The translations under genes were made by a program, and so were the position numbers. The notes under the pieces are model-generated. The model was not told the DNA's origin, searched no databases, and worked only from the letters and a program-made list of their open reading frames with translations. From Fragilaria crotonensis (Eukaryota > Bacillariophyta > Fragilariophyceae > Fragilariales > Fragilariaceae), in the NCBI GenBank assembly GCA_022925895.1, contig JAKSYS010000781.1, positions 1 through 25,881 on the forward strand: a stretch of DNA of 25,881 bases, given 5' to 3'. Of the stretch, positions 3,511-25,881 are shown one piece after another (within the stretch, counting starts at the first letter, position 1; each line of letters opens with the position of its first letter).

Positions 3511-4718
3511 ATGGCACTGCAGGTAGACGAACAACAAGCCCCCAATGAGGTGGACTACGAGCTCGAGGAGTCTCCCGAGTATACCGATTCATCCCCGAAG
3601 AAAAACAAGAAAAAGCGAGACGCAGCGACGCTGAGGAAAGCTCCACAAGGTAAGTCGTATATGTCATCTGATCACCGTCAAGCGTTGTAGGGTATAGACA
3701 TTGACGCTTTCTCCTTTCCCTAGCCCCCAAGAGGTTCAAATCAAGTTACATTTGTTTCTTCATGGCAAGCAACCGGAGATCAAGGAAGAGCTTGGAGACA
3801 AATCATCGGTCACCGAGGTTTCCAAGAAGTCAGCAGAAATGTGGAGGAACCTCCCAGCAGAAGAGCGCGCTCATTGGGATGATGTTGCAGCAAAGGATAA
3901 GCAGAGATACATGGTTGAAAAGTCAAGTTACACTGGTCCATGGCAGGTTCCTTGGAAGAGAGCTAAGAAAGATCCATCCGCCCCGAAGCGCCCCATGTCT
4001 GCTTTTCTCTATTTCAGCCAGGACAAGCGTCGCCAAATCAAGGACGCGAATCCAACCATTCGTAACACCGAAGTTTCTCGCATCCTTGGTGAGCTCTGGA
4101 GAAATGCTGGTGAAGAGGAAAAAAGTCCTCATGTTGAGCGAGAGAAAAGTGAACGCGAGAAATATAAGGTTGCTATTGCTGAGTGGCGGACTGAGTACGA
4201 ACAGAAGGTTGAGGAACAACGCAAGTTTCAAGCAGAACAAGCTGCTTACATGACCAGTATGTTTCAAAGCTCTGAGCAAGGCGCTGACAGTCAGAACCCC
4301 CAATACCAACAGCAGTATCCTCCTAATCCATACGGCGACCACCATGGTGGTGCATATAGTCACTATATGCATCCTGGCAATCCACCGTATGGGTACCCGC
4401 CACAATATCCTCCTCCTCCTCCTCAAATGTATCGTAAGTCAACGGATCGCGCGCTTGCGTAACGAACAACACGATAATCTAACTATCTCCTCAGCACCGC
4501 AGTATCCTTCAGCGCAGGGGCCATACGGATATGCCAATGGGAAACACGTAGCGGTCTTGGGTCCAAACGGCATGCCGCATTACCAACCTCCTGCTTACGC
4601 TGGACCGCCGCCCATTCAACCAGGATATGAGGGACAGCCTCCTCCTCAATATGAGCATGGTGAAGGATCATTACCTTCGGGTGATGATGAGCAGCGGCAC
4701 CATCAATCACCGCCCTGA
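3511..4718 (+). CDS. Tandem HMG-box protein with Pro/Tyr-rich tail
   Basis: Exons are 3511-3649, 3724-4433 and 4495-4718 (TGA); introns of 74 and 61 nt are GT-AG. The start has a good context (gccATGg). An acidic then Lys-rich N-terminus leads into HMG box 1 (APKRFKSSYICFF ... KSAEMWRNLP ... WDDVAAKDKQRY) and HMG box 2 (DPSAPKRPMSAFLYFSQ ... ELWRNAGEEEK). A Glu/Lys-rich helix and a low-complexity Pro/Tyr/Gly/Gln tail follow. HMG boxes bend DNA, so a chromatin architectural role is likely. The tail carries PPQY, PPAY and PPQY, which fit the PPxY motif bound by WW domains. Box 1 is broken: the frame changes at 3766/3767 (atggc then aagcaaccg), as if one base, probably an A, were missing. No intron boundary fits there. 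With that base the product would be about 357 residues. Confidence 0.9.
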
Positions 4719-4944
4719 AGCCCTGGGGGAAATTTAACTTTATGTGGAGGTTTTCCCGTTGATTCAAGACCCGTGTACCTATTTGCTACCAGTGATTTTT
4801 GTTGGGGTCGGACCCATTTGTCAATCTATATCTTAGCACTCACTATATCAACAACAATCATGATACATTGTGTGTGTTAGTTGGTTCACACGTAGAGACC
4901 TTCATCAACGAGTTCTCGGTATTGAAGCCATGAGGTTTGCATCA
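4719..4944. terminator. Shared 3' region of convergent genes
   Basis: This 226-bp gap separates the stop codons of the HMG gene (+) and the DNA polymerase gene (-). Both 3' untranslated regions and polyadenylation sites must lie here or overlap. No canonical AATAAA signal was identified. Confidence 0.4.
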
Positions 4945-7900
4945 CTACTTGGCATCATACCAATTGTTGTGCTCGTACGATCCATCAACGAGCAGTGGAA
5001 CAGCAGTCTTTTGCAAGCCATATACCCACGGACTTTCCATGCAATCAATAACTTCGGCAAAGGCCTCTTCGGCTGTCTCCTGGGGACCCTCTAGAATAAC
5101 CTCATCGTGAATCTGCATCAACAGAATCCATCCTAATCGTTTGAGCTTTTCGCTGTCGTTAATCTTGATCATGGCCATCATAGCCACATCTGCCGCACCC
5201 CCTTGAATTGGTGTGTTAATGCTAGCCCGTTGAGCATGACCGAGCAACTTTCGATCCTTTCCTTTTGCGTCCGGCAATTGACGATAGCGTCCCATGAGTG
5301 TTCTCGTGAGACCATATTCCTTTGCGTACTCCTTGGTCATTGTTTGCCACTCGAGCACCTCAGGGCGGGCATTGTACCATGCGTTCAGCATTTCTTCTGC
5401 CTCATCTTTGGAAACACCCCAATCTTGGCTAAGACCATGAGCTGTTTTGCCGTACGCGATGGAGAAATTTAACGTTTTCGCCTTACGGCGTTCCGATGCA
5501 AACATGTCTTTCAACATTGGTTTGGGTGGTTCGCCCTTGCTATAGTCCCATTCCAACAGACACTCACCCGCGTCAACCTTTTGCTGGACATAATCGAACA
5601 TATCCAATGCAGTTCGAGAGTGGAAGTCGCCACCAGCATGAAAAGCATCAATCATTGATCGGCATTTGGTCATACTCGCGAGCAACCTCAACTCCAGTTG
5701 ACCGTAATCAGCAACGATGAAGTTGTTGCCAGGTGACGCCTGGAATGCCCTACGAATCTTGTACGTGTCCTTCTCAAGTGCCGGTTGGTTTTGAAGGTTC
5801 GGTCGCCTTGACGACAGACGACCAGTCTCGGTGTTAAGATTAACTGATCCGTGAACCCGACTTTGCTCGTCAGCCAACAACTGAAGGCTAGTGAGGAAGT
5901 TTGCGATCATCGTATCTATAGAGCCGATGGCACCAAGGCTGTAAAGCGCTTCACACGCTTCGCGTCCAGCATCTCCACCTCCGAAAAAATCATACGCGGT
6001 GCCGAACTTGGGGTTCTCCCTAAAGGGATCTCCGGCAAGAGCCCGAATAACATCAGCTGTGGCACTAGGGGCACCTCCAGCAGTATACTTGCTAGGAGTC
6101 ATCCCGATACTACTGATTGTGACATCCACGAACTTCGAGACCGTATCCGCTTTCTTTCGTACTTCTGCAAGAATATCCTGCAAGGTACCACCGTCTCGAT
6201 CGGCTGCGTCTTTAAGAGCCCGACTTATCGCTTCATAACCATTCCTGTCGTTGGGGTTTCGAGCAGACATAAGCTCTAACGCGAAGGAGGTGTCGTCGCG
6301 CAACCGATCAAGAAGTTGTTTCCTATTTCCAGTGTTGTCTAAACCCCTCCCGACGAGCACGCACCGCAGGTCATCGTCTTTCATCACCTCGTAATCATCG
6401 CCAACGCCCAAAAGATTCGAATCCTCATCCCCAGCTTGAGTCAGATAATGTCCCCGCAGCCTTTCCTGCAACTCAGCCTTCTTGCCGGACTGTTTCAGTC
6501 CAAGGCTTTTACAAAGCGCCTTCAATTGAACTGCATTCATGCAGTCAAAATCGTCCTTTTCCGGTGGGGCGTCATTTGCCTCACCGCTGTCGCGCAGTCG
6601 CATTGCCTCCAAAGCATCCTCAGGAATTTCTTCCCGCGGAACTTTGAATACGCGCACACTTTCTGTTCTCTCTTTGCTTTTCGGGTTTTCAGCACCTCCG
6701 AAGAGGAACGTACACAGCTGCAAGCTAGAGGCTGTGTTGATTGCCAATCCATCTGGGCCAATCTGCTTTGCTGCCCAGTGTCGGAAGATATCGACGTGCC
6801 GCTCTCGGTCTTTGCGCGCTTGCACTTCGACTCCAGCCAAATAGTCCCGTGCATCAACGCGAATGCCACGACGTTCCATATCGGTTAATACTTCTCCAAA
6901 TGCGCGCATATACATTTGGTAGTAATCGTACATATTCTTGTCGCCGACCCACGTCATTTTTTCAAGCAATTTCTGCAGTTCTTCCCGGAGCAGCCACGTC
7001 CCTTCAGCATCGTATGCTGAATATATAATCCAACTTTGTCGGTGCTTTGGATCACGCTGCATCACTTCAATAGGTGGAATATCTGCCACGAGACCTTCCG
7101 TTCCATCCTTTCGAGTTCTCTTTATTCCGAAAAGCTCTTTCATAGGCTTCTTGCGTCGCTCAAGCAAGGATTCTGTTAATGCTTCCAAAGAATATCCTGT
7201 GCCATGCCCATACTTCGATCGCGAAGTATCCTGTAGGCGTGCCATGTGCATCGTATCACCACCAAACCCACGACAGTCGATTCCTTCGTTCCACATGACA
7301 TGTCGATCGAATCCGTAATTGTGCCACACTTTTAGTTGTTTTGAATCTTGAAACCAGTCCTTGAATTCTTGAAGTAGTCCAGCAGAATCGTCCAGATTAT
7401 CAATCCATAACGTAGAACCAGGACCATCCCCGAGCCCATAGTCAAAGTCAGGACCGCTATACACGGATACGCAAGTGACATAGCCATTGCCGACAGGACC
7501 AACAGTTTTCAAATCAATGTCCATAACTTCTGTATCGCACGCATGAAATGTGCCATCAGGGGCGTCAAAAAGCTTTTGCAGAACGATACGCGCCTCTTCT
7601 TTCGTGCGGACGATGGTAACCCCCGGTATTTTCATGTCGGAAACATCAAAATATCCTTCATCGCCGGGTCCGAGTTTCACAAGCGTCGCCAATCTTGCTG
7701 CTGATTCTGCCGACCGGCGTCCAAACGTTTGCGCCCACTTTAGGGGAGCAGCAGGATTCCAGTTACCCCCCTTGACGGGGCGAGACTTGAGATCTTGCAA
7801 CAAATCATCCTGGTCAGCTGTGTAAGCTGGAGGAACATACTCCGGTTTATCCGATGGATGAGCAAGAGTGCAGGCTACGTAGTCTGGCAGTAATAACTTG

Positions 7901-8189
7901 TCGGAAGCAAGAAGCGTCTTGTGCTCAAGAGGAACATCTTAACGATAGGCGGCTTGATGTTCTCGTAAGAGTAGACATCTTGCTCATCGTCATCGTCAAG
8001 TAGTCTGATGGCCGCTGCTTCTGACAATGAGGAACGCAGAAGGAATGAGTGTGGTGCAATGATCCGAGGGTTGTTTTGACACAGCTGCCGTCGATATGGG
8101 TTCGACAGGATAGCTCTTCTCATCATATTGAATGATGTGGGCTGTAACGAATCCACAAGTGCAAGTAGATGAAGAAGCAACAGGTTCAT
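4945..8189 (-). CDS. Organellar family A DNA polymerase (POP-like) with SAP motifs
   Basis: A DNA-dependent DNA polymerase of the plant/protist organellar type, about 1,080 residues. A first segment, 8189 to about 7938, starts right after an in-frame stop with a hydrophobic leader (MNLLLLHLLALVDSLQPTSF), so import into plastid or mitochondrion is likely. The frame then changes at about 7938 (gttaa/gatgttcc), as if one base were missing, and stays open to TAG at 4945. The 3'-5' exonuclease motifs are CDTEVMD, WHNYGFDRHVM and IYSAYDAEGTW. Polymerase motifs are A (VADYGQLELRLLASM, near 5712), B (RRKAKTLNFSIAYGKTAHG) and C (MQIHDEVILEG, near 5110). Between exonuclease and polymerase lie two SAP-like helix-turn-helix motifs (6543-6442 and 6402-6298), which may add DNA binding. 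No intron is seen. The TLNFSIAYGKTAHG motif B favours POP over bacterial Pol I. Confidence 0.93.
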
Positions 8190-8463
8190 TCAGTATTCTT
8201 TTTGTTCTGAGTGCGGACCCAGGATTGTCTCCGATACTCTTCAGTAGCGGTCAGACGCTGCGAAACTAAGATGTGAGGCGCGGTTGACAATGACTCGTCT
8301 ACTCCGTAGTTCTTGCTGTATTCATCAATGGCAATCTTATGATTGCGTACTAAGTTGCGTTTGGTGGTTGGGTGGTGTGGTGTTGACTTTTCGACTTCTT
8401 TTTTCTTGTTTTTTGAATTTCTTGCAAATTTGGCGCCAAAAGAAATGCCCCCACGGGGAGACT

Positions 8464-8522
8464 GTGTGGAGTCTGTGAAATCGACTGTGTGTCTGTGTGG
8501 AGTGTGGAGTCTGTGAAATCGA
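8464..8522. repeat. 21-bp direct repeat pair
   Basis: Two identical 21-nt copies beginning gtgtggagtctg and ending aaatcga lie at 8464-8484 and 8502-8522, offset by 38 nt. The linker (ctgtgtgtctgtgtgga) is similar in composition, so this looks like a recent local duplication. It sits 280-330 bp upstream of the polymerase start codon. Confidence 0.8.
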
Positions 8523-9249
8523 TGTTGGGACTTGGGACGTGATACTGTACGTGATTGACGATTGACGCATTGACGCATGGCGAACATACAGTCAATTCGG
8601 GTTCATTCAAAAGCAAACTTCGAACTCTCTTATGACAGTAGAGAGTGCTGCAGTACAACCATGCTGTTGAGGGTACAAGGTACAAGTGTAGTCTACATGA
8701 TGGTCAGCGCATGTGTTGTTATTTTGTATGATAATATACTGGAGAACTAATCCGATTGTACGGAAGTTATTATTTAATCTGGTACTCCTAGTAGTAGTAG
8801 TCTACGGGAATCCGACACTCTCGTAGTACAAGTATACAAGTACTAAGGAAAATCAATTAAAGCCTCATTTCGCTAACTGAAGTCTTTTGAGGGAATGATC
8901 TCTCAAACCAACATTCTTATTCCTCTACACTCATGTTCGCTATCCTTGTCCACTTTCTTCGTACCTGCCCACGTTACTCCCAGCCCTTCAGTCCCGTGGC
9001 CGTTAGCAAGTCGCTTCATTGTACTTCCAACGCGCTCCTCGAGCGCGATCCAAGGTCAAGAGTCAATGTGTTGTAACCTAGGAGAATGTCCCAAAACTTT
9101 TGTAAATAGGCACCTGTCTCCTTTGTTCTGGTGGTAGATGCAGATCCTTCTTCTCTTTGCACAAAATACAAAAAAAACAATTTCTTCTGAAAAAAGCCAC
9201 TAGTACTAACCTTTGGGGAACTACTGGCTGATAAAAAGCATCATTCATA

Positions 9250-9830
9250 CAAAGGTTATCTGCTTTCACCTTGCTCAGCATGTTAGTAACTTGTGGTGGG
9301 GTGTCAATGCAGGATTCAAGAAGGAACTAATACATGGAATGATTACCTCTTCATTGTTGTCAACATTTCTCCTCTTCGTATAGTGAGAACATTGATAGAA
9401 TTTCAAAAAGCAGCTGTGAGGGGTCCAATAGTCCGTCATCAATGTCATGGATTCCTCTCTTGCTTGCATCCCCAATGGCATCCCTGTTCACCTTTTGCAC
9501 CTGCAATTCGTGGACTTGAGAGGCACTGCACAAAGCTGATCAACATGATTTGGATATTCAAATTGTTGGACAGCATGATGCTTCTAAACTTATATGGTGG
9601 CATGGTGATCACATGGGACTCATCCACAGCAACGGTCATTACCATCCAGGAACAAATTGTATTTCATTAGCATCTAGCAGAACAAAGGCCACATTTGATC
9701 TCCCAAAGAAGTCAAGTGATGATCTTATTTTTACCTCTCACCACCTTCCTAATTTTGTTCAGCACTATAAAAGTAAAAACTGTCTAACAAAGTTTTCAGA
9801 CAAACAACTGCAATAGGTCTTCCATGATAT
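9250..9830. other. Possible relic of an unidentified element
   Basis: Open but short frames occur on both strands. The plus frame from about 9520 to 9816 reads EALHKADQHDLDIQIVGQ followed by LIWWHGDHMG and NGHYHPGTN. The minus strand at about 9500 to 9375 reads GIHDIDDGLLDPSQLLFEIL. These look protein-like but are interrupted by stops, and I do not recognise a family. A decayed transposable element or gene fragment is possible; a chance pattern is not excluded. Confidence 0.25.
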
Positions 9831-10288
9831 CAAAATTGCAATGAAATGCAATGACGTTTTGGTGAACGAAATGGTTTTGTCCAAGGAACCCAGGAGTATT
9901 CCAGAAGTATTTCCCTAAACACAGCAGGAGGAGTACCCTAATATAGCTGGGTGCACATCGTTCTCATTTCACTTTGTGCCCATGGAAACGTCAATAGAGA
10001 CGCCTGTGAATGGGTCCTATAACAAAACGATGCGCGAGAATTGAAGTAGATTGACCATCGCCCACCCACCAGGCTGCGAATCCGAACGATGTACGGGATG
10101 GGAGGTCAGACGATAAGATTATAACTCTACATTATCCCTGAAATACCACTACAATGGTATTTTCTCGTGGCCAGGTGTACAAGTGTCGTATGCGTACTTT
10201 CAGCATACGTTTGGCATACCATTTCAAAATGTAGGGTATTTTGCAGTAGGTCACGTGGTTTTATACTAACACTTGAATTAGGTATCTT

Positions 10289-10350
10289 GTACCACTAAGT
10301 GGTACCCTCGGTAGAGTTTCACAGCCCCTTAGTACCACTTGTACCACTCT
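10289..10350. repeat. GTACCACT palindrome and direct copies before Crypton
   Basis: A perfect inverted repeat, gtaccactaagtggtac (10289-10305), has 8-bp arms around one base. About 30 bp further, agtaccacttgtaccact holds two more copies of the arm in direct orientation. The group lies about 140-190 bp upstream of the recombinase start. It could be a recombinase or transcription factor site, or just part of the general GTAC richness of this genome. Confidence 0.6.
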
Positions 10351-10485
10351 TTAAGATGAGGCAGAGAGGTGCGCAGTACGTGGTAAACGCATGTATGCCA
10401 TATGGTATCCACAAGCACCAGCAGACTGTGTGTCAGAATTTGCATTTCTTCGTACAAGATCAGAGAACACGAGTCGATCACAAAA

Positions 10486-11884
10486 ATGGTGTCCTACGCT
10501 GACGATGACGAACTCGCTGAGCACCGTGCCACCCCTTCAGGGTGTGGCACTGGATTACAAGTCCTCCCTTGACAGTTTGATGTCATTTTTCCACGGAGTT
10601 GATTATGGGAAGGAACGCCAGTACACAAAGGGTGAATTGCGAGCTCTGACACCTGATGATGTAGTTGCTTGGATGAATGTGAAAACCTTCGATGACCCTG
10701 ACCCTCCTTTAGATGCAAACCCAACAGAGTGCCGTAGTAGTTCCCTTGAGTTTTGGAAGAAGGCCCTTTCATTCTTTATGCCTGATCGTTTGACTGCATG
10801 GGTGTCGGGCCGTAACGAAGGGAATCCTACACGATCGATTGAAGTGAACAGTCTTATCAGGCGTGTGAAGAAAAAGGAGGTCCGGAAGCAGGGTAAGGCT
10901 TCAAAGGTCAAACGTCCACTAACACGAGAAGAGTTTCAGAAGATGCAGCATATATTTCAGAGCAACGATAGCTTTCTATGGAAGTATGGTTTGAGCTGTC
11001 TAACAAAATTTCAGTTTCACATGATTGGCCGCATCGACGATACGACACAGGTGTTGATTGAAAATATCCAGGTTCACGATTTTTATCCCAATGCTTTGAA
11101 GACTCGTATGAATTGGTCGAAAAATGTATCCGAGGAACGAGATGCTCCGTGGCAGATTGTGTTGGGTGCAATGGATACGACATATTGTGTACTCACTTGT
11201 CTCTCTTTGTGGTTGGAGTTACATGCTCGATCGAATCCAAATGCTTTGCTTTCCCCCTATGTGTTTGCTTTTACTAACGACAACACTGTACCTGCTGGAG
11301 GTAAGAAATCAAAAGAGATTGCAGGCACTGCTTTTACTAAAATATTCAGAATGGACGAATTCGCTGGTGGTGTTGTCGACGATAAATTGGGAAGTCATTC
11401 AATTCGTAAGTTCGCGTCAACGCATGTGCGACGGTCTGGAATTAACAAGGATGATAAGGACATTCGCGGGCGCTGGAAGTTGGCAAAGCGGGTTTCAGAT
11501 GTTTACGATGATGTCGAATTGCCCTTTCCTGACGCGAAGGTTGCTGATAAGTTGTGTATTGGCGGTCCGTGCTATTACCTATTCCCTGATGAGTTGTTGG
11601 CGACGACTACTGGTGTTGGTGCTGGCGCTGGAGACGCCGGGTTGACACCTGTGCTTAAGACTTTCATCCTCAGCAACGTCGTTCCAAATATTCGAAAGGT
11701 GTTGTCAGAGGATGCGTCGCTTGTGCTTGGTAAGGCAATGCTTTGGATGATTTACTCACCTTATGATGCGGCAAACGAGATCGTTCCAACGGTCATTAAG
11801 GATCAGATTCGACTTGAGTGGAATGAAATCGTATCGGCTTTGCATCCTGGAATCGATTGCAACAGTCCTTTTACAATCCTATAA
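10486..11884 (+). CDS. Crypton tyrosine recombinase (frame-broken)
   Basis: Catalyses cut-and-join of DNA through a tyrosine nucleophile. The likely start is ATG 10486 (MVSYADDDELAEHRAT), after which the frame changes near 10532 into the long frame open from 10391. An in-frame ATG at 10505 would avoid the change but lose the N-terminus. The helical N-terminal domain contains SSSLEFWKKALSFFMPDRL and a basic stretch (RRVKKKEVRKQGKASKVKR). The catalytic set is Arg in MIGRIDD (codon at 11030), HSIR (codons 11396-11407), a Trp in RGRWKL replacing the usual second His, and Tyr in SDVYDDVELP (codon at 11504). LPFPDAKVADKLCIGG follows, as in diatom relatives I know. The stop at 11882 comes from a T run one base short; the reading continues beyond as PIKRVPVVITGDEG. 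Confidence 0.85.
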
Positions 11885-12632
11885 AGAGAGTGCCAGTGGT
11901 GATTACGGGCGACGAGGGTTGTGTGAATATTGATATCATTCCTTCTCTTGATGAAAATGGAAGTGTTGTGGATGGAATGGGAGGAGTCGTTGGTATTGCA
12001 AACGGTGGCACTGGCGGAAGAGGGTAGGAGGTATGGCATCAACAGCTGGCGGATTAGCAGCGCAGTTGTTGGCGGTTCAGTCATTGGCGAGTCAGATTCG
12101 TCGCGAGATTCAAGAGTTGCGATCAAACCAAATGGCTGATAGGGTCGAAACGCGCAAAGGCTTTACTATGGTGAATACAAACATCAGGAGGATCGCGTTG
12201 CAACCAGGTTTACGGGGTCCCGTGGGTACAGTGGCACAGGGAGGGACGAGGGCGACGGGCGGCAATGATGACGACATGGCTGTCGATGCGGTCGCCACAC
12301 TCAATGGAGTGGGCGCAGCTCCAGCAGTTCTGAGCCCAACTCCTCGCAATTTGTTCGAACTGTGGCAGGAGTACCAAGTCGGAATTGGAGGGAGGAAGGC
12401 AGCTCGGTTGTTTACTAGCAGGGAAAGGGGTGGAAAGAGCAAGTACAAGTACCACCGCCGACTCGTGATTTGGCGGATTATTTCGGGTTTAGTGCGTGGT
12501 GGAATGACTGCAGATGCAGCAATTGATAGCATTTATGCTATCTATGGACACCAGACAAGTGTCACAATAATCATCAACAGAATCAGAAAGCAAAAGAACG
12601 ATGGGACCCTGAATCCCAATCTCAGAATTTAG
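11885..12632 (+). CDS. Crypton C-terminal part with GCR1_C-like domain
   Basis: This is the continuation of the recombinase rather than a separate gene. The frame from about 11873 reads PIKRVPVVITGDEG and an acidic/Gly-rich linker to about 12022, where another frame change (agaggg/gta) leads into the open frame from 12033 to the TAG at 12630. That part has a helical segment (LASQIRREIQELRSNQMADR), a low-complexity linker and a domain with LFELWQEYQVGIGGRKAARL, KYKYHRRLVIW and YGHQTSVTIIINRIRK. The last pattern resembles the GCR1_C DNA-binding domain of fungal Gcr1 and Crypton proteins. ATG 12033 could start a separate product only if the breaks are real. Confidence 0.75.
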
Positions 12633-13150
12633 TTTTAAATTTTTACATGTTGGAAGCGACATGACATGTGATCCGCATGCTGGATCTGTATACACATGTC
12701 TGTACTTGTCGAACATCATACTAGCGAAAAACATGACAGTAAACAACTCAGCGTATTCTAGCAAGCGTATCTCGTGTTAATTACATGTACAGCACTCATT
12801 ACCGCCTCCCTACGTGGTGGTATAAAGTATTGCATTAAAAACCCATACTTTCACAGTACTATGATCCCCTTATCATGACTCAGCCTGCACTTTTATCGGA
12901 TTAGGAGTGGACAGGCATCCCTGCCTCGCAGTATTACTGGATGCTAGAGAGTACACGTCTGCATGCAAAGCCTATGCGCGAAGGAAATGAAGCGCACCTC
13001 GTACTACGAGTCCTAAGTACTAACAAGTAGGTATGGGGTATGGGGTATAATCTAAGGAAAATATCGACCTATGGGCGCTCACAATTGTAGAGTCGGCGAG
13101 CATGTGGAGCAATTAGCTTGAGTTCAGCATCTCACCTATCAAACGATGCC
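12633..13150. other. Intergenic region, Crypton to cyclase 3' end
   Basis: About 520 bp without a gene. It contains several GTAC and ACATGT words (for example ttacatgtacagc near 12780 and cgtactacgagtcctaagtac near 13000) and short repeats of ggtatgggg near 13030. The right end of the Crypton is probably here, but no target-site duplication could be fixed by eye. Confidence 0.5.
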
Positions 13151-16100
13151 TTAGCACTCAAATGAGCCGCATCGGTGTGGAGAACCCAGATCGAGCCCGC
13201 CTTCATCGAGTACTCTCCGATCCTGTGCCATGTTTTCCAGATCAGTCAAGATGGGAAGGACGCGACGCAGACTGGCGTTGGCCTTCGCTAGTCTGCAATA
13301 TTCAACTCCATCCCGACTCAACCGAAGTCCATTCTTCATGAGCATTTCCTGGTCATTTGTAGCTATGCCGGGGCGTTTGGCAAGCAAAAGGCAGATCTCG
13401 GCACCGATGCTGTCAGCCAGACGCCCAAATGGCAAAAAGGCGTTGTTCAATGTTTCTCCCAGACGTAAATTCTGTTCACACAATGCCCATTCAAGGTATT
13501 CTTGCAGGTTTGCAACATCAGCATCTTGGTTCTCGTCGAGATCCAGAAGCATAAGTATTGGATTGAATAATTTAAGACTGAACGTGGTCGCCCCTTCCCC
13601 AAAATATAGGTCAAACGCGTCAATGACGTACTTCATGAAGACTTGCTTAGCTTTCAAGGCCATTCCATTGTCTTTCAGTACCCAGAGTAAAGGGTATAAG
13701 ATGACGCATGAATTGTGAACATTCGATGGTTCCATGAGCGGCATTATTTCCGAAACAACAGAATCACACGTTCGAAGCGCCTCCTCTGTCCTGCCAACTT
13801 CAACCAACCAAATTGCGCTCAGGCTGAGGCATTGTGCAGCTCTGTCACTTCCATATTCACGACAGATTCCACTCGAATGGCAATCAGGGTGATAGATCTC
13901 TTTGAGGTGATCATGGGTTGAAAGAGCGCTCTCGAAATCGCATTGCCGAGCGAACATATCTGATTGCATAGCCAAGGCCCGAGCATAATGAATGGGATCT
14001 CCATGCAATCGAGTCTCGTCAACAAATTTGGCAACTAAGCCTTGCTCATAGGAACATGTCTCGTCCTGTTTGATCGCCCCCAACTTGATCAACAGGAACA
14101 ACCCGCTGAATATCGGAAAGACAATTGAACGATCTGTGATATTTCGGCCGCTCTTTGATGCTCCCAGCAACTGTTCCACGAGAACATGATGTCAGATGGA
14201 GTGAGTCTTAAATAAGGCATTCCAAACACGGTTGACTTACTCCCAAAGCATCCTGGTAAACCTTGGCGGCATCGTTCACCAGGTGCAGATTAAGGTATGC
14301 TTTGCCCAAAGCGACACAAATCTTAACACATGCCACAAGCTGGTCACTTGAGATAACGTTGAGAACTTCAGGAGAGAATCCGCCCGCTGCATCCTTTGAA
14401 TCGACTGCTCTGGCCCACATACCAAGGGCTTGGTACAGCCCAACATTCTGCTTGTGCAATCCCAGGTCCTCAAACATCTTGCCGGTTTCAAGAGCAATTC
14501 TTGAAGTCTCGAGGAAGTCTCCACTTGCCTTCCAATGGCCAAATAGGAGCAATCGGGATGTAAAATCCTTGGTGTTGTTGAGATCAGTGCCTTCTAAAGT
14601 GAGAGCTATTGCTCTGTGTAACTCGGACTTCCGTCTGTCGAGCATTAGGCCTAAGATCGATGACCGCCACATATCGTGCGAGAAGCAACATGTTAGTTCG
14701 TCAGGTATGGGATCGGATTGCTGCTGCAGGTTTGATTCGACCAAACCTGAGTATGAGGCAGGGGGTGGTCAATAGTCTCGCCCCGTTCCACTCAACGCAA
14801 AGAATTCCTTTTTCGCTGCCGAGGATAGTGCCCGCAGAGCACCATTCTCAATGCATCGGCATTTGCCGACGCTTTGCCTGCCGTTGTCCCTAAAAGTGTA
14901 AACATGACTGCCATGAGTTCTGAAAACTCGAATGAAGATCCCATCACGGCTGCTAAATTCAGCACCTTTCGGGCTATACCGCGAAAGCGATCAATCTCTT
15001 GCAGAATCATTTGATTGAGAGGCGTTGCAGACGTTGTCTAACAGTCAATTTGTTAGTTGACCGTGAGCATATGAGGTCAAAATGATTGACGTCGATCACA
15101 AGGAACACGTACCTCTGCAATCGCACCAAATTCTTTCATATCATTAACTACACCTCCGGCCACAGCAGATGAATAGTTTCGTTTTAGATGCTCAAGCAAG
15201 ACCGACGCCATTTGGGGTATACCTCCTGTCTGGGCCAAGGTGGACTTCAACAGCTGTTCGCTGACATCTTCGTTTGGAAGCCCCAGTGTTCTCGCTATCA
15301 ACTTTCTCATTTCTGGTTCGTTAAGCGGGTTCAAGACGACAGGCAGATACCTTCCGGTGAAGACATAATCATTGTTCAATCGGTCCCAGAACCCATTATC
15401 CATAGCCAATTTGTACTCCGAGAGAGGGCGGGACGCACAAACGATCATAAGATTTAAGCCACTCTCGAACAACTTTTGGACAACTTCGAACGACATATCA
15501 TCTGCGAATTGAACGTCGTCGAGAGCAATAATAGAGAGGTCAGCATTCCTTGTGCAGCGCAGAATAACGTCAGCCATTTGCGTTGCGAGTGAAGCTTTCT
15601 TTTGATGTTCCAGCTTGTCACTCCCGCCAATCATGCGCAGGTTCAACTTCAGCAGATGCTGACCCACAAGCTGAGCGAACTCGGGTGAGGCACCAATCTC
15701 GTTGCACAGGGCAGAGACTCGATCTCCAACTCTTGACGTGCTCATCATCGATATAGAAACTCCACAACTGGAGACCCACGAATTGATTGATCCTGCATTC
15801 GACATGACAGACGATTCATCCATCTGATATCCTTCACTTTCCTTTATAGCATCCATCAAAATCGAGCTAATAGCACCGAACGGAGTCCTCGCGTCGCTGT
15901 CCCTAATCACGCACTTCGCAACGAAAACACGCTTCCTTTTCGTGCGAAGGGTCCTCTGGATTTCGTCGATCATTTGTAGAACGAAAGTACTTTTGCCTAG
16001 GCCAGCGACACCTGAGACCAGGACAAGCCTAGCAGGCGTTTTTACAGACGACGTAGCAATCTGATACCCCAGTTTTGTCAACATTCCCAGCTCGCGGGTT

Positions 16101-18093
16101 CGACCAACAAAGTTAATAGTCTTTCGACCCCAACGTCTCTGCAAAGATGAGATTGGCTCAAAGATTGCGACCGGCATCGAATATCCTTTGGCTTGGACAG
16201 GACAAAGGGCGTTGAATCCGTACGATCTATCGGCTAATTGGCGGATTGCATCATCAACCAGTAACCCAGGGTTCGATGGCAATGCCATCAAACGAGCCGC
16301 CAAATTGACTGAAGGACCCAATATCGCATATTCGTGTCGCATGATTCCACCAACAACTCCACAATACGCGTTGCCCATCGTGGCACCGATTCGACTTTTG
16401 ACATCAAATTCTGAAAGGAGGCAGTTCTGAATGGTTGTTGCTGTTGGAAGCACTCGCTCCGTCACCATGTTTTGGAAATTCGAACCCCTTAATCCAAAAG
16501 TTGCAATCAGCACTAACCCTTTGTCGTCCACAACGAATTGTCTCAAATGGCCACCGAAGCGCGCTAACTCCTCGTTGCAAGATTCATAATTGAATTGAGA
16601 AGATCAAACAGCGGTGAATCGTTTTCGTCATCTCCAGGTATCGATACTGATATAAGTGGTGCAATAAACATAACAAACACATTCCTGAGCTCTGCTTCTT
16701 CAACCTGGCGTGTTTGAACAAGCGTGGTGTTCCCAGCAACATCTGGATATGACGCATTGCCATCACCGGCATCGTTTGCAGCCACGACCGGGTGCACATA
16801 CAGGGATAACAGCGTTCGGTAATGAATCAACGCCGCGGTGTCCCATCCACTCAAAAACCTTTCCACTCTCAATGCCAATGGATCACTCACGGCAGGGGAA
16901 AACGGTGCTGTCAACGTAAACATTGTCATAGACTGGTTCGCAATGACCGCAGGAGTGCGCTGTTTAGAAGAAGAAAGTGAATCAGATAGCACGCACGTTC
17001 GCGACAATATTTCAATCGAAGCGGGACAAGCAGCAACCTCCCCAATCTCGGCGAATGTCGCTGCGAGCGCAATCGCATCAACTGATGAGCCCAGAAATAT
17101 ATTTTGCCTTCGAAAAGTGTCATCCCCCACGTGCACTGATACAAGTGTGCCGAAGCTTATTCCACAGTGTACATTCAACATGTGTCCCTTTCCCCTTTCG
17201 TTATGCTTGGCTGTGTCACTGACACATATTGGATATTCACTGTATTTGGATACAATAGCCGCACCGCATAACGCAGCTGCAGTGACACATTCATCGCAGC
17301 TCATCAGAGCCCTCAACTCTAGTGATCGGCACGCAGCGTATGGTTTGCTTGTGGACACTCTCCACGTTGCAAGCAACGAATCCCCAGCAAATTGCAAGAT
17401 GTCCCCTGAATGATTCGTGACTTCATTCACTATCAATTCAAAATATTCGTTGATGGCCCTACTGAGCGCTTCCGGGCCCAACACGGTAGAGAGACGAGTA
17501 AATCCTGAGATATCAACAAGTAAGAGAGATGCATCAGTTCTGGATGCGTGAGGCATCCCTTGAAAATCTGACAATCTGAACGACACAATCGAAGCCATCG
17601 ACCCTCGGCGAACCATTTTGCGCCGAGGAATCGCACTGGTGTCAAAAATCACCTCGTGGTTCTCCAAATTAGCAGAGGCAGGTAACTCGTCCACTTCAGG
17701 CTCGGTTGCAAGAGATTCGTGAAGCGCCATTCGTTCCATGCCACTATTCTGTGTCAGATCAGTCTCTGAGTCGTCGAATTCACGAGAAAGCTCAGAAAGC
17801 GTATCCTCGGTTGTGACGCTGTCATGGTCCTGATCATCCTGATTATCCTGAAGATCTGATTCATCAGTCGTACAGTCGTTTAGAGCGTGGTGAATCGATC
17901 CTTCGCCGTCGCCGTGGCAATGTGTCATGGTAATTGCCCATGCCTTGGTCTCCTCGCTTAGGCGCGTTAGAACCGACATTGGAACATGGGTGGCAAGATA
18001 TTGAATAGACTGAACCGTGCGGGATCGAACTCGTTCAGGGTTTGAATCCACCACTCGAGAGCTGGAGGATTTCAACGATTCATCGTTATCCAT
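13151..18093 (-). CDS. Soluble adenylyl cyclase-like protein (ADCY10-type)
   Basis: Two class III cyclase domains, a P-loop ATPase and a long helical tail, about 1,570-1,600 residues, the layout of animal soluble adenylyl cyclase (about 1,610 residues). Segments on the minus strand: 18093 to about 16574; then, after a one-base frame change (gcaac/gaggagtta), to 15113; intron 15112-15038; 15037 to a disturbed zone at about 14860-14740; on to 14241; intron 14240-14171; 14170-13151 (TAG). C1 holds both metal-binding Asp, LLVDISGFT (residue 194) and GDILQFAGDSLL (residue 238). C2 (RQFVVDDKGLVLIATFGL, IGATMGNAYCGVVGG) lacks that pair and is probably regulatory. Walker A is GVAGLGKST (about 16012-15986) and Walker B SIIALDDVQFAD. 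No membrane segment is seen. An RRGS site at residues 162-165 fits the PKA consensus. Enzyme output (cAMP) is inferred from the family. Confidence 0.88.
14740..14862 (-). other. Unresolved coding junction inside cyclase gene
   Basis: The frame entering from 15037 ends at a TGA just after NSLR (about 14792). An alternative frame reads NGALRALSSAAKKEFFALSG and then, across one TGA (about 14772), PPPASYSGLVESN into the next open segment. Either there is a frame change near 14850 plus a nonsense or miscalled codon, or a short intron ending at ctcag (about 14755) joins the flanking frames. The sequence alone does not decide. Confidence 0.5.
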
Positions 18094-19766
18094 CTTGTTC
18101 TTGTGTGTTTTTCGGCGTCCCGACAGGAAGTCCTCGGTCCTGGATCCTCTTCTGGGAGAGGATTAAGGACGAGGTACGAATACCTTCCGACACAGCAAGT
18201 GCTTTTATGCGTTCAATTTGCTGCGTAAACAAGGTGGGTGTGACCGCCAATTTTCGGGCGAATCTGAAAAGGACAACAAAAAGTTCCGATTACGGTTTCT
18301 CAGTGTAGTAGAGTAGTAGAGACCTACTCCAAGGCATACGTGCTGAAACCTCGGACATCAGGAAACGCACCTCGGTGTGCTAAAATTATCATTTATCAAA
18401 AAGACACATAATCTCTTCTGCAAAGAGACACAGCTCCGTTACTTCTTCGAGTAGACTGTACTACTACTTAGATATTGGCAAAACCGTCCTTTACAACGAG
18501 ACATTCAATGACTTAGTCGTCATTTACCGTATATTCCCGACAAGTATTGGTAGACCTACGTGGTACATCCTCGTCGTTGTTTGGGATTATCCGATTATCC
18601 ATATCATGCGTTTGTACAAGACTGAACATTCCCGAACTTGGAGGTCCGGGAATTCTTGTTCACCATGAAATAATAAAATTGTGCAGAATGTACTGAGACA
18701 TAAGTCAAAGTTCCGGAACCCCCCTGGAGTCGGAGTGTAGACAGTAGACAGTGTTGATGATCGAAGTGTAACTCGAAAATCACTGCATGTGATGCACACG
18801 TTCTCAAGTTGTTGGATTCACTGTTTCATATGATGGTGAGCTCAGTACTACTCCGAGTACTCTAGCTAGCACTGTAGTTCTGTAGTACCTGTCCTAAAAA
18901 TTTGAATTTAAACACGCTGTGTGTATAATATTGCACTATTTTTCCTACAGTCACTTAATTTGTGCTAGGAATACAACTGCGGCCTAGAGTAGCTAGTCAA
19001 AAAAAAGAGTTGACCCTCATGGTCAATAGCAACATCTTGACACTCATGAAAGCAGACTCTTACCTCATCAGATAACACAAATTGATCATCATGGAGTGCA
19101 GCAGTAGTGCAAGCTAGATGTTCCAGCAAACAGCTCCCATTGTTGATTTGGGAAAGCTAAAAAAGTGGTCTTGGTCCAGGCCAGAACTGTGGTGCAATTC
19201 TCTACTGCCACCCTGAATGCCACCTCTTTTGCTCTCTACACGAAGATGTGGAAGAATTAGCTAAGCAGCCACCATTTTTGCGACACCTTGGCATCTGTGG
19301 GTGCATGCTCCATGGCCAACATTGGATGGATCCCAATCATCAGCCATTGCTTTAGCAATGAAATGAGCATCATGTATGCCACTTTTGACCTCAATTGGAT
19401 TTGCATATTATGAGCTGGTGTGGATGATGCGATGTCATGGTCAACAATCAACAATGTATCACCTAAAGGTTTTGTCTCTTTACTGTCGGACCTACTGCTT
19501 GTACCTACCCCTATGCATACCCCCGCTACGATATACGACTGGACTGGGCTCCGAGCTCCGAGCTCTCTGACTATAAGATTGCGTACTGGAGTACCAGGTA
19601 CAAGTATGTCGTACCTGGTACAGTACTACCTAATACACCTAATGGAAATACCGGTACTGCTAGCTACTGTACCGGTAGAGTCAGTACTCGACCAGTACAC
19701 CGAGGAAAAGCTTTTTCACCATGATGGCATACATGTAATGCTTCATTAGCAAGGTGCTTGATAACA
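18094..19766. other. Divergent intergenic region, cyclase and cyclophilin
   Basis: About 1.7 kb that should contain promoters of both the cyclase (-) and the cyclophilin (+). No gene is supported. GTAC-rich stretches lie at 18830-18890 and 19590-19705. A patch at about 19010-19440 looks like an element relic: on the minus strand it reads AKAMADDWDPSNVGHGACTH and, further on, EHLACTTAALHDDQFVLSDE, interrupted by stops. I do not recognise the family. Confidence 0.5.
19590..19705. repeat. GTAC-rich island upstream of cyclophilin
   Basis: About ten GTAC tetramers lie in roughly 115 bp, including ggagtaccaggtacaag, gtacctggtacagtactac and gtaccggtag. The island ends about 60 bp before the cyclophilin start codon, so it lies in the presumed promoter. 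Confidence 0.7.
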
Positions 19767-20463
19767 ATGAACGACGTTGACGTGGTGGTCGGTCCAGATC
19801 CTGAAGTGATGGAAGCTATCAATAAAGGCAATGCGGTTGTTTTCCTTGATATCAGCCTGGGGGAAGGTGATACTGCGGCGCCTTTGGGACGAATCAAGTT
19901 GGAACTCTTTGCTCAAGATGTAAGTTGAAAGCAGGAAACAGACAGGAATCGGCGTCTACTGTTTGAATGATATTGACCTCACACACGCGATGCTTTGCTT
20001 CCTTCGTCTTTTCTCCTTCTTGTCCGCCTAGTGCCCCAAAACGTGCGAGAACTTTCGTCAGCTCTGTACAGGTGAATTTCTGGTGAATGAACAACCGACG
20101 GGGTACAAAGGGGCCACATTTCATCGAGTCATTAAGGACTTTATGATTCAGGGTGGTGACTTTGTCAAGGGCGATGGCACTGGCCAAAACAGCATCTACG
20201 GAACATCGTTTCCTGATGAAAACTTTCTTCACCGTCACGATCAACCTGGAATGTTGAGCATGGCGAACTCGGGAAAGGATACAAACGCTTGCCAGTTCTT
20301 TATTACATTGGCCAAAGCGGACTGGTTGGATGGGGTGCATGTAGTCTTTGGGCGCGTTTTGGATGCCGAGTCTATGCTCACTGTCCGCAAGTGTGAGGCA
20401 GTGCCAGTGTCAAATCAAAAACCGAGAATACCATTGAGGATAACAGAATGTGGAGAACTGTAG
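19767..20463 (+). CDS. Cyclophilin H-type peptidyl-prolyl cis-trans isomerase
   Basis: Exons 19767-19919 and 20032-20463 (TAG), joined by a 112-nt GT-AG intron, give 194 residues without any frame break. The protein catalyses cis-trans isomerisation of X-Pro bonds. The fold signatures are all present: [15 protein letters not shown] (with the catalytic Arg), [28 protein letters not shown] and [10 protein letters not shown] (with the cyclosporin-binding Trp). The N-terminal extension before VVFLDIS and the end RITECGEL resemble human PPIH, the cyclophilin of the U4/U6-U5 spliceosomal particle, so a nuclear role in splicing is the best guess. No signal peptide is seen. The 3' end faces the small minus-strand gene 135 bp away. 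Confidence 0.93.
19920..20031 (+). other. Cyclophilin intron
   Basis: The donor gtaagt follows LFAQD and the acceptor is cgcctag before CPKTCENF. The 112-nt removal keeps phase 0 and restores the conserved cyclophilin core. Confidence 0.9.
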
Positions 20464-20598
20464 CTTATCACACTTTCTTGGATGGAGTATGTTTGGTATA
20501 CTGTAGTGGTAATTCCGATCGAACGAACTTCTAAACATCGAACTATGCAATACTATGCAATCCTTTGCGCGCTAGTCAAGGCCTCTGCTGTTTCCCTA

Positions 20599-21241
20599 TT
20601 ACTTGGTCTTTTTCTTGATAAACATTTCCAAAGCCTCGTCTTCATCGTCATTATCCGCACCTTTTTTCTTCTTCTTCTTTTTCTCCCCATTCATTTGCCT
20701 GAGTTTCTTCTGCTCTATGGCCAAACGCTGTTCCAGCTTGGCTTTGGCCTTGCGCGCCTTGGCCGCTTCTGCCTCTTGCTTGGCCTTGGCTTCCTCCTCA
20801 GTGTCACCAGCCAAATCCTTGATAAAATCTTCATCCAAATTTTGCAACTTCTTGTTCTTGACTGGAATACAGAGAACAGGTGTCAGATGTGATGGATGTA
20901 TTGTCCCATTTGTCACGGGTCGCTCGTCCCGCTCACTTACGGGCCTTCATTTGAGACTTACCAAGAACACAAGCCCCACACCGACCAAGATTGGCCCTCC
21001 TATGTATAGGGAATGTAATTGAAGTACGCCTGCAGAGAGAAAGGCATGAAAAGGAGATGATCGAAGAAACAAATCAGCGGTGAGGAGAGAGTGTGGGTAT
21101 AAATGACGGCAACAATGACTGACCACAACATGTCGACTCTGATCTGTGTCTTAGTCTTACATAGGCTCCGCATACAGTGAGGAGGGGCAGAGAGAAGGCA
21201 AGGTTCTCGCTGGTTAGGAATACGTTGTTGGACTGCGTCAT
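20599..21241 (-). CDS. Small putative membrane protein with Lys/Ala-rich coiled tail
   Basis: Three exons are proposed: 21241-21161 (starts MTQSNNVFLTSENLAF), 21029-20941 and 20861-20599 (TAG); introns are 131 and 79 nt, GT-AG. I do not recognise the protein. Exon 1 ends in a hydrophobic segment (LPLLTVCGAY), exon 2 has another (IGGPILVGVGLVFL), and exon 3 is a charged helix (EEAKAKQEAEAAKARKAKAK) with a run of seven Lys and an acidic end. This suggests one or two membrane helices and a cytosolic coiled tail. The exon lengths leave two bases missing. Frame changes near 21003 and 20960, one base each, would make the reading continuous at about 144 residues. Start and exon 2 limits are therefore tentative. 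Confidence 0.5.
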
Positions 21242-21339
21242 GGTGGAGGTCAAGACCGACAATCGGCACCTTTGCTCGAGTTCAGCAAATAATCAAGTCC
21301 GCTGATACTTGGTGCCTGTTTTTCATCGTGGCTTGAATC

Positions 21340-21364
21340 GGGCTCTGGGCTCTGGGCTCTGGGC
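21340..21364. repeat. Tandem repeat gggctct x3.5
   Basis: Three full copies and one partial copy of gggctct lie head to tail, about 100 bp upstream of the small minus-strand gene. Confidence 0.85.
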
Positions 21365-21463
21365 ACAAAGGTGTACTGGTGCACAGTGCAGACATTTACA
21401 GGTTCGCTTCTTCTCGTGGACAAAGAATCACGAGTCACGAGTGGGCGACGAGGAACGAGGACT

Positions 21464-21885
21464 GTTGGTACAAGTACTGTACTTGGTACTAGTACTACCT
21501 AAGAGATATGCATATGATATATGATACAAGTACCGGTAGATGTACGCTTACCGTAGAACTGTCATTGTCTGAGGGTACATGTACAAACTATGCATACAAA
21601 CTAGAATATGATGCGTCCGGAGTCCGGAGTCCGAAGTCAGGAGTCTCAGGAGTCAGGAGTAGACCGTAGCTATGGCATACATACTTGTATGATAGTGGAC
21701 TTGTACAGAATATTTCATACTGGAGTACAAGCACCTGGTACCAGGTACTTGCATCTGTGGGTAGTGAGGTCGGTACAGAATACAGAATGAGTTATGTACT
21801 AACATATGCATACAGTATATTAGTACCATGTACCAGTACTTCTCTACCAGTGTGTACTTGTATCATATGTACAAGTACCGCAACT
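21464..21885. repeat. GTAC-rich island in divergent promoter
   Basis: By eye I count 21 GTAC tetramers in about 420 bp, for example tggtacaagtactgtactt, ggtactagtactacc and cctggtaccaggtact. Several form longer palindromes. It also contains imperfect ggagtc repeats at 21616-21660. It lies about 340 bp upstream of the GOGAT start. Confidence 0.75.
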
Positions 21886-22228
21886 TCGTCGTGATGAGAG
21901 ATTTTTAGTGGTCCACCGTCCGCAGTCCATCAGCCGTTCATTCCCTTTGTTGAAAAGATTTTGGGGTTCGGAACACCGGGCTGACCCGAAAGTTCATTCG
22001 ATCCGATCCTTCTGAGTTGGGTGCATTAAAAGTTGCTCTTGTTCCTACGGCGGAAGTTGGGTGATACTGTCCGAACTCGCCGAGTCCACGTTTCCCTTCT
22101 TTGCAATTGCTTCATTCTGAAGCTAGTCTGCTGTTCTTGCTCATTTCAGAGAGATTGACTTGATTGTCGACCCATTGATTTGATATTCTTATAGGCTATA
22201 CAGACACATTCATCAAGTCGATCCAACC

Positions 22229-25200
22229 ATGAGATATTCGTTGACAGCCACCTTAATGATGGCGGCATGCCTGCTAATGCTTTCTTGCCTTCTTCGCCGA
22301 GAGTGCCTGCCAAGATTTTGACTCGAAGCTCCAAATGGCCTTTACTACCGACAAACCATCAACATGTTCGATGGTCCGCGGGCACTCGTCAAGGAGCGTG
22401 ACGCATGTGGTGTCGGTTTCATCGCAAACACACACTCAGGTGGTGAGTTGGACGTGCTTATCGAGGAAGAAGGTCAAACGAGTCGACGTCGTGATGTTGA
22501 TTCTCTGCCTTTCTGTCCATCTGACATACTTTGCTCTCCTTCTTTGTCTCTTGGTTGCAGATGAATTTGGCAGTCACAAGGTCCTACAAGACGGTCTTTC
22601 GGCCCTCGGTTGCATGGAGCACCGCGGGGCTTGCGGAGGTGATGGTGTCTCAGGAGACGGTGCTGGTATCATGACACAAATTCCTTGGAAATTATTCCCC
22701 GAATTCCTCTCCGAAGGCAGCGCCCACAAGCCGGGTGTTGGAATGATCTTCTTGCCACAGAACGAGCAGCGACGAAACGATGTCAAGCAAGTCATTGAAG
22801 ATGTCTGCCGTGCCAACGAACTGGAGTTCATGGGATGGCGCGAGGTTCCAGTCGACCCTTCTGTTCTTGGTGAGATGGCCCGCAAAGCACAGCCAAGTAT
22901 GTGGCAATTCTTCGTCAAGGCCCCACCGCGTCTGGATTACGACGACGATTCCCGCGACGGCTTTGAGAGAACCCTATATTTGGTCAGACGTCGTTTCGAC
23001 GTCGAACGCAAATTGCGTGGACTTGTTTGGGAGGATGGCGATGGCGAAGTGTATGTGGCATCCTTCAGCTGTCGCACAATTGTATACAAGGGCATGGTCC
23101 AATCCAAGTTCTCCTCGGTTCTACAAAGATCTGCAAAATCCAGATTACACAGTTTGTCATTTATCACAGACGCTTCTCGACCAACACAAACCCGCGATGG
23201 CCCCTTGCCCAGCCTATGCGTGTTGTGGGTCATAACAGTGAAATCAATACCCTGCTGGGCAACGTAAACTGGATTAAGGCTCGAGAGGCTGCCAGGGTAT
23301 CCCAATCTCGTCAGAGTTTGATCTCGATGAAGACACTTCCTCAAGCTCCACGATCAATGGAGCCAACGGTGACTCCAAAGGGGATGTCCGCGATTTGGTT
23401 GACTATGACGCCACTGACAATATTGTGATGATGTGCAACACCCAAGATATCCCATCTGTCTTGGAGCCCCTCATCGACTTGGGCCGTTCAGACTCCGCCA
23501 ACTTAGATGCTGTCTTTGAACTCATGTGCCACTCTCGTCATCGTGCTCCTTGCGCCCTCATGGCGCTGGTCCCTACTGCGTATGAGAACTCTCCCGACTT
23601 AAAGGACAATCCCGAAATTGTCGATTTTTACAAATTCCACGGCGGCCTCTTGGAGGCTTGGGATGGTCCTGCCCTTCTCGTGTTTTCTGATGGAAAGTCA
23701 ATTGGTGCTTCTTTGGATCGAAACGGCCTTCGTCCTGCGCGATTTTCAAGAACTATCGATGGAACTGTTTACATGATGAGCGAAGGTCATTCCTGGTCTC
23801 GACGAGTCAACTATTATCGAAAGGGACGTCTAGGCCCAGGACAAATGATCAACGTCGACCTTGTTACTGGAGAATTCAAGGACAATATTAAAATCAAGAG
23901 CAGATTGCCTCCCGTAAGTGAACTGGGAAACTGTGATTTGAGAGCTATTCAATTTCTAACAGTCGTCACTACCATAGGTCATCCTTATGGAGATTGGATT
24001 CAACGCCAGAGAAAGGATGTCAAGAAGATGAAATTTGGTCCGATGAGCGTTTGTACGATGATCTCACTGCCACCTTTGCGCAAAGCACCTTTGGTTGGGG
24101 TCTGAGGACATCGGTATGCAGATAGCTGACATGGCTGGAAGCGGGAAGGAGACGACATATTCAATGGGAGATGACGCTCCTATCGCTGCCCTTTCAACAC
24201 GTCCTCAACCACTTTACAATTATTTCAAGCAACGCTTCGCTCAAGTCACCAACCCTCCTATTGATCCACTTCGCGAGGGTGTTGTGATGTCCCTTGCAAC
24301 GACGCTGGGTAAAAAGGAAAGCATCTACAAGGTTTCCGAGAAAGGTGCACGTTTGATCCACCTTGAATCGCCTGTCCTGAACGATTCGGAGATGGCCCTC
24401 ATCAAGGAGTATGCAAAGGAAGAAAATGGCGGGTTCAAGCAAGCTACTCACCACTCGCTTCGACCTCAAGCTCGGCCCCGAAGGAATCAAATCCGCCCTC
24501 GACAAACTGTGCGACGAAGCTGTCGCCGCTGTGATGGCATCGAAGTTGTCATTCTTAGCGACTTGGCTGAGACGCAGGCTGTACTTGACGAGACCAGCTA
24601 CATCCCACCTCTCTTGGCAGTTGGGGCCGTCCATCACAGACTCATTGATGAAGGGTTGCGCATGGACGCTGGTATTATTGCAGAAACTGGTGGGGCTTGG
24701 TCAACTCATCATTTCGCTTGCCTGGTAGGATACGGAGCAAACGCTGTGCACCCATACCTAGCTCTTGAGACTGTGAAACAATGGCATGGACAGGAGAAGG
24801 TTCAAAAGATGATGGAGTCCGGAAAGTTGACCAAGACATCCCTTGATGAAGCTCAACAGAACTATCGCAAGGCTGTTGAAGATGGTTTGCTTAAGATCCT
24901 TTCCAAGATGGGAATTTCTCTGCTACATCTTATTCCGGGCCCAAATCTTTGAAGCCATCGGACTCGGCGAAGAGACCATCGAGCGCAGTTTCAAAGGAAC
25001 CACTAGCCGTATCGGCGGGTTGACATTGAGCGACATTGCCCACGAAACTGTTATGATGCGCCCAGAGGTTGCTGCTGCAAAAACTAAGCTGATGAACTTT
25101 GGCTTCTACAAGCCGGTCCCTGCTCTTGGGGAATACCATGCTAACTCAGCTGATTTAGCTAAGCTCTTGCATGACGCGATCGGGATGGATAAAAAGGTCA

Positions 25201-25881
25201 GCGCTGCCACCAACCGGGATGAGCTCGAGAACGACGGAGTTAAGCCTAAGAGTGTTGCGAACTACGAGATCTTCAGAAAGAGTCTTGAGGTTGCACCTCT
25301 CGCAAATATCCGCGACTTACTTGATTTTGACTCGGATCGCCCCAGTATCCCAATCTCTGAAGTCGAGCCTGCGTCTGCTATCATGGCTCGTTTCTGCACT
25401 GGTGCCATGTCTCTTGGTGCTTTGAGTCGCGAGGCTCATGAAACTCTTGCCGTAGCTGTCAACCGCATAGGTGGAAAATCTAACTCTGGCGAGGGTGGGG
25501 AAGATGTCATTCGCGGAAAGCCCATCATGGATGTTGACGAGAAGGGCAGAAGTGCGACGTTTCCTCATCTTGCTGGTTTGAAAATGGAGATTCAGCGAAT
25601 TCCTACATCCACCAGGTTGCAAGTGGCAGATTCGGTGTAACACCTGAGTTTTGGTTACTGCTAAGCAATTGGAGATCAAGATGGCCCAAGGTGCGAAGCC
25701 TGGTGAGGGTGGTCCTCCCAGGACCAAAGGTCTCGAATACATCGCCGGCCTCCGCGCCAGTAAGCCAGGAGTCACCCTCATCTCGCCTCCACCTCACCAT
25801 GATATCTACAGTATTGAGGATCTTGCTCAGTTGATTCACGATCTTCACGCTTAACGAAAGGCTGGTGTTTCGGTCAAACTT
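22229..25881 (+). CDS. Plastid ferredoxin-type glutamate synthase, 5' part (many frame breaks)
   Basis: Makes two glutamate from glutamine and 2-oxoglutarate in nitrogen assimilation; the gene runs off the window. The start [12 protein letters not shown] and a following [10 protein letters not shown] look like a diatom signal peptide plus transit motif, so plastid location is likely. The class II amidotransferase has its nucleophile in [16 protein letters not shown], then [19 protein letters not shown] and [38 protein letters not shown] and [15 protein letters not shown] mark the synthase domain. [11 protein letters not shown] favours the ferredoxin over the NADH type. Introns are 22443-22560 and about 23914-23977. 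The frame changes near 22263, 22334, 22363, 23107, 23118, 23149, 23316, 23785, 23821, 23979, 24041, 24100, 24446, 24533, 24923, 24941, 25583, 25650, 25712 and 25733, with a TAA at 25852. Residues between breaks are well conserved. Assembly error or a decaying copy are both possible. Confidence 0.88.
22443..22560 (+). other. GOGAT intron 1
   Basis: The donor gtgagt follows SGG codon remnants and the acceptor is ggttgcag. Removing 118 nt joins THSG to DEFGSHKV in frame, as expected for the family. Confidence 0.85.

Follow-up and report, generated by a model that had tools for sequence, protein, structure and literature searches.

Frame breaks in a Fragilaria crotonensis contig, densest in a glutamate synthase gene, as probable deletion errors of a long-read assembly

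Results

The window analysed here is a stretch of 25,881 nucleotides from Fragilaria crotonensis (assembly GCA_022925895.1, contig JAKSYS010000781.1), at the right end of which lies a gene for a ferredoxin-type glutamate synthase (GOGAT) whose reading frame is broken at many points. The genes in the window are eukaryotic and carry spliceosomal introns, 12 of which were proposed from their GT...AG ends, and the window is probably nuclear DNA of a photosynthetic eukaryote. Some of the frame changes in the window are introns, and hence not errors. The Pfam domains GATase_2, Glu_syn_central and Glu_synthase fall on separate open reading frames (ORFs) of GOGAT, ferredoxin-dependent glutamate synthase is its top match among solved structures, and the piece present here is 44-55% identical to cyanobacterial loci among the matches listed. 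The gene, its two introns and its breaks are as follows.

22229 to 25881, plus strand: GOGAT gene, cut by the right end of the window, with 18 profile-supported breaks and two inferred N-terminal ones
22443 to 22560, plus strand: GOGAT intron 1, GTGAGT...GCAG
23914 to 23977, plus strand: GOGAT intron 2, GTAAGT...ATAG
23112 (two missing), 23149 (ambiguous) and 23294 (one missing), plus strand: breaks from the profile alignment
23785 (two missing) and 23819 (one missing), plus strand: compensated pair from the profile alignment, gone at penalty 9
23899 to 23900 (one missing), plus strand: break immediately ahead of the intron at 23914
24037 (called two extra) and 24099 (one missing), plus strand: breaks that fuse into a single call at higher penalties
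24446 (two missing) and 24534 (one missing), plus strand: breaks from the profile alignment, also found in a simpler run
24926 and 24937 (one missing each), plus strand: breaks that become one two-missing break at higher penalties
25581, 25649, 25736 and 25856 (one missing), 25714 and 25849 (two missing), plus strand: six breaks within about 280 bases

These breaks were located against a profile built from 73 relatives, all bacterial and mostly cyanobacterial, for which the underlying search supplied the best 80 of 590 loci; the aligned DNA began at 22201, or at 21901 in the first, simpler run. The aligner permits codons of 1, 2, 4 or 5 bases, penalises missing and extra bases equally and models introns, using the donor consensus as well as codon scores trained on the polymerase and cyclase ORFs described below. 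At frame-shift penalties of 4.5 and 5.5 it placed 18 breaks in GOGAT; the count was 20 at a penalty of 3.5, 14 at 6.5, 12 at 8 and 9 at 10, while a different profile without codon scores gave 19 and the first, simpler run 10, with 25581 and 25649 among those it recovered. An earlier note on this DNA had put the number at about 20 sites, a fair estimate. Family-like text is intact between the breaks and is regained after two compensated pairs. At penalties of at least 6.5 the last two breaks are read through, which brings in one in-frame stop near 25852.

Two more N-terminal breaks (about 22255-22275 and 22290-22350) were inferred by eye only, the codon scores there being indecisive. If the N terminus is read across both of them, it would comprise a signal peptide followed by A-N-A-F, which we take to resemble the plastid motif of diatoms. 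Together with the similarity to cyanobacterial loci, this makes a photosynthetic stramenopile, a diatom or another such alga, the likely host. An intron at 23315-23448, proposed in the first aligner run, proved false: with the donor consensus and codon scores the same region is read as the break at 23294 plus an insertion relative to the profile, and a run without codon scores put that break at 23315. The stretch 23296-23440 (plus strand) is a serine-rich acidic insertion relative to the bacterial profile.

The direction of the breaks is strongly one-sided. Eleven of the 18 were called as one missing base and five as two missing, the remaining two being a call of two extra bases at 24037 and of one extra base at 23149; thus 16 of the 18 lack one or two bases and two are ambiguous. 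The call at 23149 adjoins an alignment gap, and that at 24037 is equivalent to one missing base plus one additional residue. We calibrated these calls on 12 intact genes that had been left out of the profile, using the first 3400 bases of each, and no breaks and no stops were reported in them. When one-base deletions were planted (n = 240), 218 were called as one missing, 18 as two extra and four were missed, and of 240 planted one-base insertions 228 were called as one extra, nine as two missing, one as two extra and two were missed. Therefore a call of two missing bases is seldom an insertion in disguise, and true deletions occasionally yield a call like the one at 24037, of two extra bases. 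With both ambiguous breaks counted as insertions, the excess of deletions gives p = 6.6e-4 against equal odds and p = 0.033 against one insertion in three.

The latter figure bears on the possibility that GOGAT, and perhaps other genes, are pseudogenes or belong to a decaying second copy or haplotype in which deletions accumulated in the genome itself. Natural decay also has deletion-biased indels, and against one insertion in three the p values reach only 0.007 to 0.033; moreover, eight of 218 invariant columns differ in GOGAT. The other 210 are kept, however, and the eight differences fall inside the range of working relatives, since in six intact relatives, omitted one at a time, 0 to 21 of 251-264 invariant columns differed. 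Furthermore, GOGAT has no stop across 1103 codons, where 1.24 would be expected for each 1% of neutral substitution. Substitutions outnumber indels about 10:1 in decaying genes, so that several stops would then be expected in GOGAT. All 16 resolved indels are of one or two bases, and an unrelated small gene adjoining GOGAT seems, on weak evidence, to be affected too. We therefore consider decay unlikely, and the absence of stops and the kept invariant residues bear out the earlier preference for deletion errors over it.

The density of breaks differs sharply between GOGAT and the rest of the window, where breaks and intact genes are distributed as follows.

3766, plus strand: break within the first HMG box of an HMG-box gene, from HMG-box text; the codon test shows no change
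7939, minus strand: sole break seen in a family A DNA polymerase gene (4945 to 8189), with 997 codons open downstream
11874 and 12026, plus strand: two breaks in a Crypton-like gene, from codon scores
16574, minus strand: break separating two cyclase ORFs of a cyclase/AAA gene, from codon scores
14740 to 14850, minus strand: stretch of the cyclase gene with breaks and/or a 45-base intron, the codon scores being nearly tied between the readings
20960 and 21003, minus strand: two weakly supported breaks in a small gene, which is short and has no Pfam family
1034 to 2249, plus strand: TPR gene, intact after removal of three introns (334 residues, no internal stop)
19767 to 20463, plus strand: cyclophilin gene, intact after removal of one intron (194 residues)

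Seven further breaks thus lie outside GOGAT, and four of them (7939, 11874, 12026 and 16574) are well supported, being frame changes flanked on both sides by clear codon scores; all seven can be read as one missing or two extra bases, two states that are not distinguishable in a reading without a profile. Pfam found the TPR and cyclophilin domains of the two intact genes, as well as HMG boxes in the HMG-box gene. For the cyclase stretch 14740-14850, which the earlier note does not list, a codon-only scan gave two one-extra breaks; our own reading, a single missing base together with an intron of 45 bases that has the weak donor GTGGAA, scores nearly the same. The base-run test and some other counts enter this stretch as one break, making eight outside GOGAT. 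Most of the loci listed in the earlier note were thus recovered, GOGAT and these four firmly and 3766, 20960 and 21003 less so, and its claim that every break is a loss of one or two bases stands for 16 of the 18 in GOGAT, with 23149 and 24037 ambiguous and the seven others readable either way. A further listed break in the Crypton-like gene, at 10532, was rejected, as the same frame is open and best-scoring on both sides.

Contrary to what that note had supposed, the breaks do not spread evenly across the window but concentrate to the right of about 20.9 kb, a boundary picked after viewing the data and a step made mostly by one gene. GOGAT has 5.2 breaks per kb against 0.39-0.54 in genes to the left of 20.9 kb (p < 1e-7), a difference of about tenfold, and under the strictest count (9 GOGAT breaks) the density is 2.6 per kb, still about fivefold higher (p 6e-4 to 2e-3). 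An unequal distribution among genes is also what decay could produce.

The link of the breaks to base runs is weak. One test showed a small excess of runs of at least three bases (0.055 against 0.021 over 10 of the 11 one-missing events, p = 0.005), and an earlier version with seven events gave p = 0.02 for runs of at least three and p = 0.26 for runs of at least two. A simpler test found no excess, either at the 18 GOGAT breaks (p = 0.39) or at the eight others (p = 0.72), and the claim of many breaks in base runs is not confirmed. In GOGAT 23100-25881, runs of at least four are rarer than in codon shuffles (24 against 35.7, standard deviation 4.9), and the same is true of the Crypton-like gene (20 against 29.2, standard deviation 4.4); the deficit is therefore not specific to GOGAT. 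Single-base frame breaks with a small excess at runs of at least three could also come from an older platform with run-length errors, of the 454 or Ion Torrent type. Errors of that type occur mostly in longer runs, and with the run link as weak as it is here such a source is very unlikely.

If the DNA were correct, the missing bases would have to be dealt with during expression. In one version the ribosome shifts frame at every site, as the family-like protein text flanking the breaks on both sides might suggest. Nevertheless, none of the 18 breaks has an in-frame -1 slippery heptamer in the 21 bases upstream, although, as the motif is practically absent from the gene, this says no more than that canonical sites are lacking. 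In the old frame a stop follows within one codon at only one of the 18. Sharing of 3- to 5-mers among the breaks is at chance level (p 0.80, 0.82 and 0.97), and the genes left of 20.9 kb would seldom need such shifts. We regard frameshifting as exceedingly improbable, in line with the earlier judgement that it is far less likely than deletion errors. In a second version, insertional RNA editing of the kind known from Physarum mitochondria adds the missing bases to the mRNA, in keeping with the fact that nearly all GOGAT breaks are absent bases. A test for editing by a single base type did not discriminate, as the smallest loss, 4.8 nats, equals the control mean of 4.8 for random planted deletions. 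Such editing is known from mitochondria, however, and the genes here are nuclear with spliceosomal introns; two genes in the window are intact, and the density of breaks seems to be set by position on the contig and not by type of gene. We hold editing to be just as improbable as frameshifting. Taken together, a correct DNA in which a nuclear gene for a plastid enzyme has 18-20 short gaps that are edited in the mRNA or jumped by the ribosome, with neighbours needing little or nothing of the kind, is scarcely credible. Were the DNA right, recoding this dense in a nuclear gene would be striking, and we know of no earlier case, though no search for one was made.

Several neighbouring genes have features of their own. 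Pfam places class III cyclase domains on two ORFs of the large cyclase gene (13151-18093, minus strand), along with an AAA_16 ATPase domain; the gene also has a long C-terminal region, and we take its layout to be like that of soluble adenylyl cyclases. The small gene (20599-21047, minus strand) has a lysine-rich and a hydrophobic stretch, and its main ORF has no Pfam family. SAP domains sit between the 3'-5' exonuclease and family A polymerase domains of the polymerase (4945-8189, minus strand; Pfam); the POP paper, in its available text, gives exonuclease and polymerase only, and the term SAP does not occur there. The last ORF of the Crypton-like gene (10391-12632, plus strand) has a GCR1_C domain (Pfam, E = 1.9e-5), and no Pfam family was found on its long first ORF, so that the recombinase is only putative. 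A 2011 survey, in its accessible part, reports that GCR1_C occurs in CryptonF, from fungi and oomycetes, but not in CryptonS, the group found in a diatom. No relative of the polymerase, the GOGAT piece or the Crypton ORF was found in a viral contig set, and a 36-base string from the window did not occur in it.

Discussion

In our view the frame breaks are very probably deletion errors in a long-read assembly that had been poorly polished, an explanation already preferred in the earlier note. We favour it because it accounts together for the direction of the breaks, as judged by the calibrated test, for the kept constraint, with no stops and the invariant residues retained, and for the jump in density towards the right. 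The consensus would have come from long reads prone to deletions, with correction by accurate reads absent or incomplete, so that the assembled sequence lacks single bases very probably present in the genes of the organism. We infer both the platform and low coverage: the error rate would rise about tenfold across the last 5 kb, where coverage is probably thinnest, and from the odd length of the window we guess that on the right it stops where the contig does. The genes are themselves probably intact, with normal translation, and the pattern of missing bases would be no real biological feature.

A number of observations weigh against this explanation. Long-read deletions should be strongly tied to base runs (PMC12007338, in the part available), yet the tie seen here is weak. 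At penalties of at least 6.5, where 9 to 14 GOGAT breaks are placed, two come out as one extra base, and the codon-only scan, in which no profile fixes direction, saw five breaks in the GOGAT stretch, three of them one-extra (one falling within intron 1), and read the cyclase stretch 14740-14850 as two one-extra breaks. Compensated pairs are detectable only in GOGAT, and therefore the larger density ratios are inflated. Within GOGAT the breaks are neither significantly clustered (p = 0.10) nor skewed along the gene (p = 0.20), so that the density gradient appears only between genes. Finally, R9 homopolymers in a yeast nanopore study leaned to insertions (PMC5466710, in the part available), and the deletion bias is therefore dependent on chemistry.

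If assembly error is indeed the cause, GOGAT would be wrongly annotated as a fragmented gene or a pseudogene in gene calls on this contig and on others of the same assembly, and searches aimed at recoding or at gene loss would go astray.

The window shares several frame breaks in a conserved gene with known pseudogenes, from which it differs in that GOGAT is without stops, keeps most invariant residues and has resolved indels of only one or two bases. As far as the available portions of the published reports go, uncorrected long-read assemblies also resemble it in some respects. The yeast nanopore assembly of about 12 Mb contained 128,050 deletions, 7,735 insertions and 6,970 mismatches, few genes being free of indels, and 79,152 of the 128,050 deletions lay in homopolymers (6,869 of 17,445 after Nanopolish) (PMC5466710). 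The excess of deletions over insertions and mismatches is common to both, part of the yeast deletions lie outside homopolymers, and by our own division the GOGAT density of 5.2 per kb lies between the roughly 11 and 1.5 deletions per kb of the unpolished and polished yeast assemblies. Here, unlike in yeast, the density varies within a single contig, and the breaks are less strongly linked to runs. In the Kastor study most indel errors were likewise false deletions that split genes, but these were strongly tied to runs of 2-8 bases, a tie that is weak here (PMC12007338). A diatom paper describes MinION errors as mostly indels and the assemblies as in need of polishing (PMC8147415).

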